A stretch of DNA of 63,328 nucleotides. It comes from Candidatus Desantisbacteria bacterium CG1_02_38_46 (GTDB lineage Bacteria > Desantisbacteria > UBA1551 > UBA1559). Each line of letters starts with the position of its first letter. The stretch's first letter is position 1. The DNA lies in assembly GCA_001871015.1 (NCBI GenBank), contig MNUO01000005.1:1-63328 (forward strand). Direction: 5' to 3'. The notes below the pieces were generated by a model. The model saw only the letters and a list, made by a program, of their open reading frames with translations. It was not told the origin of the DNA and searched no databases. Shown piece by piece: positions 33,239 through 63,328 of this stretch. The position numbers and the translations under genes are program-made.

Positions 33239-33366
33239 TGTAACTCAGGACTTTAGTCCTGACATGTAACTCAGGACTTTAGTCCTGACATGTAACTCAG
33301 GACTTTAGTCCTGACATTTTGAGTTACACACTTTCTCGGTGTGTCTCTGTGCCTTCGTGGTTGAAA
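33239..33366. repeat. R1 hairpin repeats, 3 tandem units, followed by an R8 unit
   Basis: Three nearly identical 26-base units atgtaactcaggactttagt + cctgac contain CAGGAC-TTTA-GTCCTG hairpins at 33246, 33272 and 33298. After a fourth half unit (gagttac) comes tttctcggtgtgtctctgtg and ccttcgtggttg (R8), whose reverse complement AACCACGAAGGCACAGAGAC is a common type of intergenic repeat. pilT starts 12 bases later. Confidence 0.88.
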
Positions 33367-55068: not shown

Positions 55069-55956
55069 ATGAACTCCTTACTTCAAATTACAAAGTTGCT
55101 TTTACATAAGCAGGGGATAAGAGTAAGGAAATATTTGGGACAGAATTTTCTTATTGATGAGGAAGTGTTACACAAGATAATTGAAGCTGTAAATTTATCT
55201 CCAGATGATTTTGTCCTGGAGATTGGAGCGGGACCGGGTATTTTAACAAAGGAGATTGCTAAAAGAGTAAAAAGAGTCATTGCTATTGAGCTTGACCAGA
55301 ATTTAATCAAAACATTAAGGGAAAATTTAAAGAATTACCCCGGCGTGGAAATAATAAAAGGGGATGTGCTCAGGTTGAATCTTAAATCCCTTTTTCCAGC
55401 AAATATCCCTGTTAAGATAATCGCCAATCTTCCTTATTATATTACCACTCCAATAATTATGCATCTTTTAGAGCAGAAATTCCCACCTTTTACGAGGTTA
55501 GTTATTATGGTTCAAAAGGAAGTGGGATTAAGGATTGTTGCTTCTCCCAAATCCGCAGACTCTGGAGTACTTTCAGTTATCCTGCAATACTATTCTAAAC
55601 CGGAATTAATCTCTATTGTGCCACGGAAAGCTTTTTTTCCTTCACCGAAGGTAGATTCTGCTATTGTGAGATTGACCATACGGAAAAACCCACCTGTCCA
55701 AGTAGTAAATGAAAACTTATTTTTTAAGGTAGTTAGAGCTTCTTTCAGTCATCGTCGCAAGACTCTAACAAATTCATTATTAAAGAGCCAGTTGGGACTT
55801 GATAAAGAAAAAATTACACAGTTGTTAGCAGATGCTCATATAGAGCCTGATTTGAGAGCACAATCTTTAAGTTTACAGAATTTTGCTCACCTGGCAAATA
55901 CATTGATAAAAACCACAGGGGCACAGAGACATCGATATTGTAACTCAGGACTTTAG
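55069..55956 (+). CDS. rsmA: 16S rRNA adenine dimethyltransferase (KsgA)
   Basis: The enzyme dimethylates two adenines near the 3' end of 16S rRNA. The protein has GQNFLIDEEVL near 24, the SAM site LEIGAGPGILTKEI near 51, IELDQNL, and NLPYYITTPIIM near 120. I start at ATG 55069, closest to the family N-terminus; a TTG at 55051 overlaps pdxA. The last five residues (CNSGL) and the stop are coded by an R1 repeat, so the C-terminus was reshaped by the insertion. Confidence 0.94.
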   Translation: MNSLLQITKLLLHKQGIRVRKYLGQNFLIDEEVLHKIIEAVNLSPDDFVLEIGAGPGILTKEIAKRVKRVIAIELDQNLIKTLRENLKNYPGVEIIKGDVLRLNLKSLFPANIPVKIIANLPYYITTPIIMHLLEQKFPPFTRLVIMVQKEVGLRIVASPKSADSGVLSVILQYYSKPELISIVPRKAFFPSPKVDSAIVRLTIRKNPPVQVVNENLFFKVVRASFSHRRKTLTNSLLKSQLGLDKEKITQLLADAHIEPDLRAQSLSLQNFAHLANTLIKTTGAQRHRYCNSGL

Positions 55957-56070
55957 TTTTGATATGTAACTCAGGACTTTAGTCCTGATATCAAAACTAA
56001 AGTTTTGAGTTACAACTTTCTCTATATCAAAACTAAAGTTTTGAGTTACAACTTTCTCTATGACTCCGTG
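55916..56070. repeat. R1 cluster (4 hairpins) flanked by inverted R8 sequences
   Basis: The R1 hairpins are CAGGAC-TTTA-GTTTTG, CAGGAC-TTTA-GTCCTG and twice CAAAAC-TAAA-GTTTTG. They are bracketed by aaccacaggggcacagagac on the left and, in inverted form, tttctctatgactccgtggt on the right. The left flank and the first hairpin are inside the rsmA coding end. Confidence 0.88.
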
Positions 56071-56089
56071 GTTATGCGGGAGGTATTTC

Positions 56090-60946: not shown

Positions 60947-61612
60947 ATGAACAAAAAGAAAAATTTTTTCAAGACCGCAGAAGGGTTTGTTTTTATACTT
61001 GGAATAGTAGTTTTTATTTCAGGCTTTTTTATTCTTTATCCTGTGATTCAGGTTAACTGGAAAGGTATGCTGATGATGTTAATAACAGGCATTGCTGGTG
61101 GAAAAGGAGTTAGCATACCAGTTGGACTTGGAAAATCTTTACCGGAGTGGTTAGTATTTGTTGTTGCCGCATTGCAGGATATAGTTGCTGTTTTCTGGTT
61201 TTACCCATTCATAGTTCTTTTTAAAAATAAAGTTATTAAAGGAAAATTAATAGGCAATATAGTACAAAATGCCCAGTATACTGTAGATAAACACAAAAAT
61301 TGGCTGAAGCCATTTGGCGTGCTGGGCATTGGTTTTTTCGTGTGGATTCCACTCACCATGACAGGTCCCATCGTGGGTTCTGTATTTGGCCTCCTGCTTG
61401 GAATGAGTACGCCAGCTATTATGATTACTGTAACCGTTGCTGGTGTATTAAGCGCATTATGCTGGACTTATCTGTTTGATTTTATGTTTACCTGGGCAAG
61501 CAATGTAAATAAATATTTTCCTGCAATTGCCGTTATTGTTATCTTGGCGTTACTTTTGATTATTCGTCTTGAGGAAATATATAGAAAAAGAAAGTATGGT
61601 GAAACAGAATGA
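60947..61612 (+). CDS. Putative small multidrug export protein
   Basis: The 221-residue protein has about five membrane segments and a conserved-looking middle (KPFGVLGIGFFVWIPLTMTG, then GPIVGSVFGLLLGM), as in the PF06695 family. Substrate unknown. It overlaps the next gene by four bases (ATGA). Confidence 0.75.
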   Translation: MNKKKNFFKTAEGFVFILGIVVFISGFFILYPVIQVNWKGMLMMLITGIAGGKGVSIPVGLGKSLPEWLVFVVAALQDIVAVFWFYPFIVLFKNKVIKGKLIGNIVQNAQYTVDKHKNWLKPFGVLGIGFFVWIPLTMTGPIVGSVFGLLLGMSTPAIMITVTVAGVLSALCWTYLFDFMFTWASNVNKYFPAIAVIVILALLLIIRLEEIYRKRKYGETE

Positions 61613-62907
61613 AAAAGAAATTTATTTTTCTATTCTTTATTCTATACTCTTTTTCGGTGCATGCCGGGATAAAAAATGTTAAGTTTGACAATGGCTTAAC
61701 AGTATTGCTCAAAGAGGACCACAGGTTAAAAATTGTCTCAATTCAACTCTGGGTTAAAGTTGGCTCCAGAAATGAGGATACCACAACTTCTGGCATCTCG
61801 CATCTGATAGAGCACATGGTTTTTAAAGGTACGCAGAATTACCCCTGTGAAGTAATCCAGGACGAGGTGGAAAAAAGAGGGGGCGTGATCAATGCAGGGA
61901 CATCCCGGGACTTCACATATTTTTATGTTACACTACCCACAGGTCAGAATAACCTGTCCATTGGTCTGGATATTCTATTTCAAATGATGAGAAAAGCATT
62001 ATTTCCGGAAGATGAATTAGACAGGGAAAAATTTGTGATTGCTGAGGAAATAAACCGTAGGTGGGATAACCACCAGAGTTATCTCTGGGATTTGTTCAAT
62101 TCTGTACTTTACTCCTGTCATCCGTATTCTCAACCGGTATTAGGTACATCAGAATCAATTCGCCATATTTCAAAAGAGGACATTCTAAATTATTACAACA
62201 AGTTCTATGTGCCGGCGAATTGTACACTTGTGGTTGTAGGAGATTTTAAAGAAAGAGACATAATTATACTTACTCAGAGGATATTTGGCGGGGAAAGATT
62301 TTTCCAACCATCAAAGACCGTAGATGAAACAAAAGTAGAACCTATCGCAAGAAAGAATTTAGAAATTGAAAGACCTGTCCATCAGGCGTATTTAATATTT
62401 GGTACAGCAGGTCCTGATGCAGTAGATGACGATTGTTATTCAATGGATATTCTCTCTTATATTCTTGGAAAAGGAAGATATTCACGTCTCTACCGAAAAT
62501 TACGAGAAGAAAAAAGATTGGTGTGGAGTGTGGATTGCTCGTTTTTAACGCAAAAAGAAAAAGGGCCCTTTTACATCTCGATAGAATGTAATCCAGACAA
62601 AATTCCATTGGTCAAAGAAATTATATTTCAGGAACTGAAAAGAATTTCTAATGAGTTGGTCAGCGATGATGAAATTAAAAGAGCAAAGTCAATGTTTGAG
62701 ACAGGATATTTATTAGATGTCGAGACTTATTCTGGAGAGGCATTTAATCTGGGTTATTATCAAACAATAGGTTCATACAAGATTGCACTTGAATATTTAG
62801 GTAAAATCCTGAAGGTTACTTCAAGGAGTATGCAGAGAGTGGCAAGAAAATACTTCAATCCCCAGAATTTTATCAGTGTTATGATTATGCCACCTGGAGA
62901 AAAATAA
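61609..62907 (+). CDS. M16-family zinc peptidase (active subunit)
   Basis: The 432-residue protein has a signal peptide (MKKKFIFLFFILYSFSVHA), the HxxEH zinc motif in HLIEHMVFKGT (near 65-75), and the downstream Glu in EEINRRWDNH. M16 peptidases often work as a pair with an inactive partner, which here follows. It is likely periplasmic. The two genes are 3 bases apart. Confidence 0.9.
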   Translation: MKKKFIFLFFILYSFSVHAGIKNVKFDNGLTVLLKEDHRLKIVSIQLWVKVGSRNEDTTTSGISHLIEHMVFKGTQNYPCEVIQDEVEKRGGVINAGTSRDFTYFYVTLPTGQNNLSIGLDILFQMMRKALFPEDELDREKFVIAEEINRRWDNHQSYLWDLFNSVLYSCHPYSQPVLGTSESIRHISKEDILNYYNKFYVPANCTLVVVGDFKERDIIILTQRIFGGERFFQPSKTVDETKVEPIARKNLEIERPVHQAYLIFGTAGPDAVDDDCYSMDILSYILGKGRYSRLYRKLREEKRLVWSVDCSFLTQKEKGPFYISIECNPDKIPLVKEIIFQELKRISNELVSDDEIKRAKSMFETGYLLDVETYSGEAFNLGYYQTIGSYKIALEYLGKILKVTSRSMQRVARKYFNPQNFISVMIMPPGEK

Positions 62908-62909
62908 AT

Positions 62910-63328
62910 ATGAAGAAATTGAAAAATGTAACTCAGGGCTTTAGCCCTGATATGAGCATGCAGAATGTAACTCAGGGCTTTAGCCCTGATATCAAACCTA
63001 AAGGTTTGAATTACTCCAGTGATTTTTGTGGATTCAGTAACAGATTATTTCTTTGTATCTTCCTGTCTTTGTGGTTTTTTATATTGAATTTTGTAGTTAT
63101 AAGTCCGGTTTACGCTATGGCAGGTAGCAATTCTATCCATGAAACTATTTTAAACAATGGACTAACCATTATATATAAGCAAAACCGGGCAAGCCAGATG
63201 GTAATAATGGATATGTTCATAAAAGGTGGAATTTTTTATGAAGACGAAGATAAATCCGGGATTACAAATCTGGTTGGGAAATTATTGTTAAAGGGAACTA
63301 TTAACCGCAGCGCTGAAGAAATTTCTAG
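62910..63328 (+). CDS. M16-family peptidase, inactive-type partner (cut by window end)
   Basis: The frame from ATG 62910 is open to the window edge. The mature part starts near residue 75 (ETILNNGLTIIYKQ) and aligns with the active subunit, but at the zinc site it reads GITNLVGKLLLKGT, lacking HxxEH, as in inactive partners. The first 35 codons translate two R1 repeats (NVTQGFSPD twice, then KPKGLNY). The hydrophobic stretch RLFLCIFLSLWFFILNFVV, a likely signal peptide, comes from sequence like R8. A TTG near 63006 could be the true start. Confidence 0.8.
   Translation, partial: MKKLKNVTQGFSPDMSMQNVTQGFSPDIKPKGLNYSSDFCGFSNRLFLCIFLSLWFFILNFVVISPVYAMAGSNSIHETILNNGLTIIYKQNRASQMVIMDMFIKGGIFYEDEDKSGITNLVGKLLLKGTINRSAEEIS
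62926..63013. repeat. R1 hairpin repeats, 3 copies inside a coding start
   Basis: CAGGGC-TTTA-GCCCTG at about 62934 and again at 62975, and CAAACC-TAAA-GGTTTG near 62993. All lie within the open frame of the second M16 gene and keep it open. Confidence 0.9.

Follow-up and report, generated by a model that had tools for sequence, protein, structure and literature searches.

Palindromic repeat DNA in the predicted signal peptide of an M16-family protein from Candidatus Desantisbacteria

The stretch of Candidatus Desantisbacteria DNA considered here (the window, 63,328 nucleotides) ends inside the second of two neighboring genes for M16-family peptidases, and the beginning of this gene reads as if short palindromic repeats of the genome had been translated into protein. 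The locus thus raises the question of how much of the predicted signal peptide is repeat DNA, and of whether the repeats created a new export signal, replaced the start of the gene, or entered a signal peptide that was already there.

The M16 gene pair and the start of M16b

The first gene, M16a (positions 61609..62907, plus strand), encodes a protein of 432 aa with the Pfam domains PF00675 and PF05193, an HLIEH motif, and an ordinary signal peptide, MKKKFIFLFFILYSFSVHA. The second, M16b, is read from an ATG at 62910, 2 nt past the M16a stop, and stays open to the contig end, so that the window holds its N-terminal 139 codons (62910..63326, plus strand). The remainder lies on contig C108 of the same genome, which overlaps the contig end by 75 nt, and the joined sequence gives an intact protein of 486 aa. 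Both M16 domains were found in it (PF00675, Peptidase_M16, at 64.5 bits; PF05193, Peptidase_M16_C, at 129.3 bits), in agreement with the original prediction that the frame enters the normal M16 fold. The HXXEH zinc motif is absent from M16b at the expected place (GITNLVGKLLLKG versus GISHLIEHMVFKG in M16a). Paired bacterial M16 peptidases comprise one active member and one that lacks the zinc motif, and the present pair resembles them in its adjacent genes, in the presence of HXXEH in M16a and its absence from M16b, and in both Pfam domains; from its sequence, M16b is probably the non-catalytic partner subunit of M16a. What sets this pair apart is a repeat insertion, confined to M16b.

Among six candidate starts of M16b, only ATG 62910 has a motif like a Shine−Dalgarno (SD) sequence at usable spacing, namely GGAG at 62896..62899 (plus strand), 10 nt before it, and it is the start that we infer. 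The first five codons (ATGAAGAAATTGAAA, 62910..62924, plus strand) encode MKKLK, a non-repeat start and apparent remnant of a positively charged n-region. From here, the predicted signal peptide has an n-region of 45 residues, an unusual length, with a net charge of about +4, followed by h- and c-regions, LFLCIFLSLWFFILNFVVISPVYA, at 63045..63116 (plus strand). The core LFLCIFLSLWFFIL, with VYA at −3 to −1, conforms by rule to a Sec/SPase I signal peptide, and cleavage would likely follow VYA (63116). Predicted peptides informative on start and cleavage are NVTQGFSPDMSMQ and the semi-tryptic MAGSNSIHETILNNGLTIIYK.

Regarding the mRNA, a fold prediction for 62870−63125 gave −68.1 kcal/mol (z −3.2), with the 62910 start region paired with 63044−63056, inside the R8-like block described below; in this model, the pairing could possibly exert translational control. 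A match in contig C55 that extends upstream into 62887−62925 was set aside as chance-like, and it ends within a different coding gene.

R1 hairpins and the R8-like block

The repeat named R1 has the sequence ATGTAACTCAGGRCTTTAGYCCTGATAT. When searched with up to two mismatches, ACTCAGGGCTNNAGCCCTGA gave 92+126 matches genome-wide (1.73 Mb), with many copies counted twice, once per strand, owing to the palindromic core, and the reversed control gave 0. A census of the sampled DNA counted 58 distinct clusters with 128 hairpins; as 48 of the 57 clusters other than that of M16b are intergenic, an untranslated role of R1 is the prior expectation. In M16b, R1 occupies codons 6−35 (62925−63014), in frame with ATG 62910. 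Hairpin 1 (ATGTAACTCAGGGCTTTAGCCCTGATAT, 62926..62953, plus strand) is read as NVTQGFSPDM, hairpin 2, of the same sequence (62965..62992, plus strand), as NVTQGFSPDI, and a third, inverted type-2 hairpin (CAAACCTAAAGGTTTGAATTAC, 62993..63014, minus strand), one base off the common genomic form, as KPKGLNY. The claim that three R1 hairpins make up the first 35 codons is therefore correct for codons 6−35, with two direct copies and one inverted, and has to be trimmed at its beginning: the 5′ flanks of other R1 copies differ from the MKKLK codons, so codons 1−5 are not repeat. Most multi-hairpin R1 clusters in the sampled DNA have no open frame at all, and for this reason the uninterrupted frame through the M16b cluster is unusual by chance.

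Since R1 clusters are normally intergenic, one may ask whether translation begins instead within the third hairpin, at TTG 63006. Most of R1 would then belong to a 5′ leader and might act as RNA, and of the repeats only the R8-like block would be translated. The resulting signal peptide would have a normal length, 37 aa. However, TTG is a rare start codon, an SD at usable spacing is absent, and the n-region of 13 residues would have a net charge of about +1 only, whereas ATG 62910 has its GGAG, its place just behind the M16a stop, and a typical MKKLK n-region; we regard a start at TTG 63006 as improbable.

The second repeat, R8, was said to follow R1 clusters near 33314 and 56043, and copies were indeed found at 33334−33362 and 56045−56073. 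The former closes an intergenic composite of three R1 hairpins and R8 (33242..33362, plus strand) upstream of ATG 33378, and the latter an R1−R8 composite (55942..56073, plus strand) upstream of ATG 56090; both served as references. Of the eight other R8 sites in the DNA sampled, seven have R8 directly against an R1 hairpin, often just ahead of a start codon; R1−R8 is thus a recurrent unit and a usual intergenic pair in this genome.

Whether R8 also contributed to M16b depends on the R8-like block TTTCTTTGTATCTTCCTGTCTTTGTGGTT (63048..63076, plus strand), whose codons 47−56 encode 10 of the 14 residues of the hydrophobic core. The exact 20-mer quoted for R8 in the original prediction is unique in the genome, and the proposed R8-like origin of the hydrophobic stretch was weak as written. 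The family itself is real: TCTCTGTGTCTCCGTGGTT, with up to three mismatches, gave 5 matches here and 58 in G001, the other genome in our two-genome comparison within the phylum, whose contig matches Candidatus Desantisbacteria CG1_02_49_89, against 1 and 3 for the controls. An R8 profile of 29 columns, built from 24 copies in G001 and none from this genome, scores 63048−63076 at 23.5−23.7 bits. This places the block third in the window, behind two true R8 copies, and sixth among 517,000 positions of sampled DNA, where all five better scores belong to true R8 copies and the highest for any non-R8-looking sequence is 14.3 bits. Its score was reached by none of 20,000 controls with permuted residues and random codons and by none of 20,000 base shuffles. 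Synonymous recodings with the amino acids fixed scored as high in 142 of 20,000 cases, an unfair null for origin because the protein is held fixed. Moreover, CAGTAAC at 63035..63041 (plus strand), 6 nt before the block, is similar to GAGTTAC, the R1 tail found ahead of R8 at other sites, and has the spacing seen at 33334, a likeness that is suggestive only.

These data bear on a reading in which R1 entered the n-region and the core is native, resembling R8 only through T-rich hydrophobic codons. The uniqueness of the exact 20-mer speaks for it, as do the synonymous recodings and the arrangement of the block, which has diverged from the R8 consensus and lies 33 nt from R1, versus about 0−8 nt elsewhere. 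Against this stand the failure of every residue permutation and the fact that nothing else in the 517,000 positions, membrane-protein genes included, scores near the block unless it is R8, and a native core is in our opinion rather unlikely.

The order of R1, R8, and start codon at other sites also invites the proposal that ATG 63117, the first residue past the predicted cleavage site, is the true start of a cytoplasmic protein, with all repeat DNA before it left untranslated, as in the composites at 33 kb and 56 kb. Yet no SD lies upstream of this ATG, the frame stays open over the 69 codons before it, the last of which encode a near-ideal h-region and the VYA site, and both the partner M16a and the orthologue described next carry signal peptides, which leaves this proposal with a low probability.

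Evidence for an older export signal

The contig scan with the single M16b sequence as query returned no match; with a two-sequence M16b alignment it recovered the orthologue in G001 and distant homologues, and the viral scan gave one distant match. Over the mature part, the G001 orthologue shares 49% identity with M16b, too little to locate the empty site exactly. It is free of repeats and begins with an ordinary signal peptide of 25 aa, MRNGCSFFCAVVVILLGFSAPVLSA; hydrophobic N-terminal signals are likewise present in many free-standing homologues from other phyla. Because ordinary export signals occur in the repeat-free orthologue and in many homologues, export of M16b is, as judged from these sequences, ancestral, and the repeats altered an existing signal peptide. 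An orthologue of this kind had been named beforehand as grounds for refuting the original prediction. The idea that the insertion created a new export signal is accordingly abandoned, while the repeat content of the M16b signal peptide, with R1 in the n-region and R8-like sequence in most of the core, stands.

The orthologue start falls within the coding end of M16a, so that the start has shifted in one lineage, and this could be taken to mean that the original start and the 5′ part of the signal peptide were replaced by repeats, MKKLK being of later, chance origin. GGAG and MKKLK nevertheless make up an ordinary start, complete and lying outside the repeat; since both are intact, insertion behind the old start is favored over the replacement that had been suggested, to which we give very little credence.

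Our preferred reading, to which we assign a probability of roughly 55%, is that a palindromic repeat array entered a pre-existing M16b signal peptide in frame, where it made the n-region longer and probably became much of the h-region. On this view there is nothing unusual about M16b as an exported member of the M16 family, except that the genome's own repeat array has invaded its signal peptide. The old start, with GGAG, ATG 62910, and MKKLK, would have been kept, and behind it, in frame, would follow the cluster of R1, R1, and inverted R1 and then the R8-like block. When translated, the R1 part would give the long n-region of about 45 residues, net positive and probably loosely structured, and the R8-like part, in its hydrophobic frame, about 10 of the 14 core residues, while the native c-region ending in VYA would still be cut by signal peptidase I. 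That the insertion survived may be due to a frame without stops in each of the two repeats, R1 and R8, and to the tolerance of Sec for long n-regions. More tentatively, and with the odds against it, the R1−R8 composite may have been the very source of the working core, in which case a part recognized by Sec would derive from selfish intergenic DNA and the original core would have been cut to its last few residues.

In-frame repeats elsewhere and known systems

M16b is not the only gene of this genome with repeats in frame. The gene names used here were assigned from the sequences, that of RmlB also from a solved-structure match, whereas RseC and TsaB are what we take two of the genes to be by eye. 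The RseC-like gene (G000:C35:24723-25193; L014, L253) carries a pair of R1 repeats in frame, IRPEGLSYVTQDFSPEA, close to the C-terminus and before RKLIPTVKEIV; the G001 orthologue lacks the pair and runs straight through (GYFRKFIPVVKEVV / GYFRKFIPVVKEVVK), with the flanking RK-[LF]-IP-x-VKE-[IV]-V kept. In the RmlB-like gene (L029:1-603, minus strand; G000:C95), about 17 extra residues in frame, AGLKSCDTLGLKSCAT, come from an R1-related hairpin pair (GCAGGACTGAAGTCCTGC...) and are missing in solved homologues. The TsaB-like gene (L085:7310-8254; G000:C76) contains two in-frame copies of a different palindromic repeat, YCSGRPWSVEKSSKLDHY; at the corresponding position, the G001 TsaB (L259, G001:C22) has an insertion of its own, KSPLTPLYERGDGGG, that looks unrelated. 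In-frame insertions in conserved genes that are absent from orthologues were therefore found for RseC and RmlB and, at low resolution, for M16b.

Repeats also meet coding sequence at gene ends. The last codons of a KsgA-like gene in the window (55051−55956) run into R8 and R1 (TTGAQRHRYCNSGL), which would give a repeat-encoded C-terminus. In G001 (L089, L234), open frames run from R1-type repeats into the start codons directly behind them (MKRITLTVM... is one case), and automatic start calling could therefore take in the repeats by mistake.

Regarding known systems, the Rickettsia palindromic elements (RPEs) are short palindromic repeats, mostly intergenic, that also occur in frame within conserved genes, where they add 20−30 residues (PMC3733652, PMC2229807). 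The likeness lies in a high-copy palindromic repeat with in-frame insertions in several conserved genes, and in this respect the present genome behaves like a Rickettsia genome with RPEs. The differences are that RPE-4 and RPE-6 are CGTC-tagged whereas R1 starts with GTAAC, that sequence and phylum are not the same, and that the M16b insertion sits in a signal peptide.

A closer parallel for the signal peptide comes from the RU-2/YPAL element of Yersinia, which encodes residues 1−30 of the predicted 41-residue signal peptide of YPO1552 (PMC2759123); repeat-free homologues of YPO1552 have signal peptides as well (PMC2759123, PMC2229807). M16b shares both features, a repeat-encoded signal peptide and repeat-free homologues with signal peptides. 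However, YPO1552 starts inside the element, whereas the M16b repeat is preceded by the non-repeat MKKLK, and the Yersinia repeat is a 168-bp MITE, whereas that of M16b consists of REP-like hairpins and a separate repeat.

REP elements, too, occur intragenically (PMC3733652). R1 resembles the intragenic REP/BIME sequences (GTAG REPs) in its clustered palindromes of 20−40 nt with alternating orientation, mostly intergenic and some intragenic, and in the presence of Y1 transposases in the genome; it differs in that the GTAG tag is missing from most R1 copies, which have GTAAC instead. Two Y1 (REP-type) transposase genes were noted (L075:1010-1670 and L076:1388-2200), one with an internal stop. 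At the two loci read, out of three Y1_Tnp matches, no R1 clusters directly flank the transposase genes, and a RAYT linkage of R1 was looked for and not found.

The predicted signal peptide of M16b, partly encoded by repeats, thus adds one more case to a phenomenon already known, with YPO1552 and the intragenic REPs as direct precedents. With it, an uncultured candidate phylum joins those in which palindromic repeats enter genes in frame; several genes are affected within one genome (M16b, RseC, RmlB, and probably TsaB), and M16b offers a clean case for the tolerance of signal peptides toward foreign sequence and for repeat DNA as a possible hydrophobic core.
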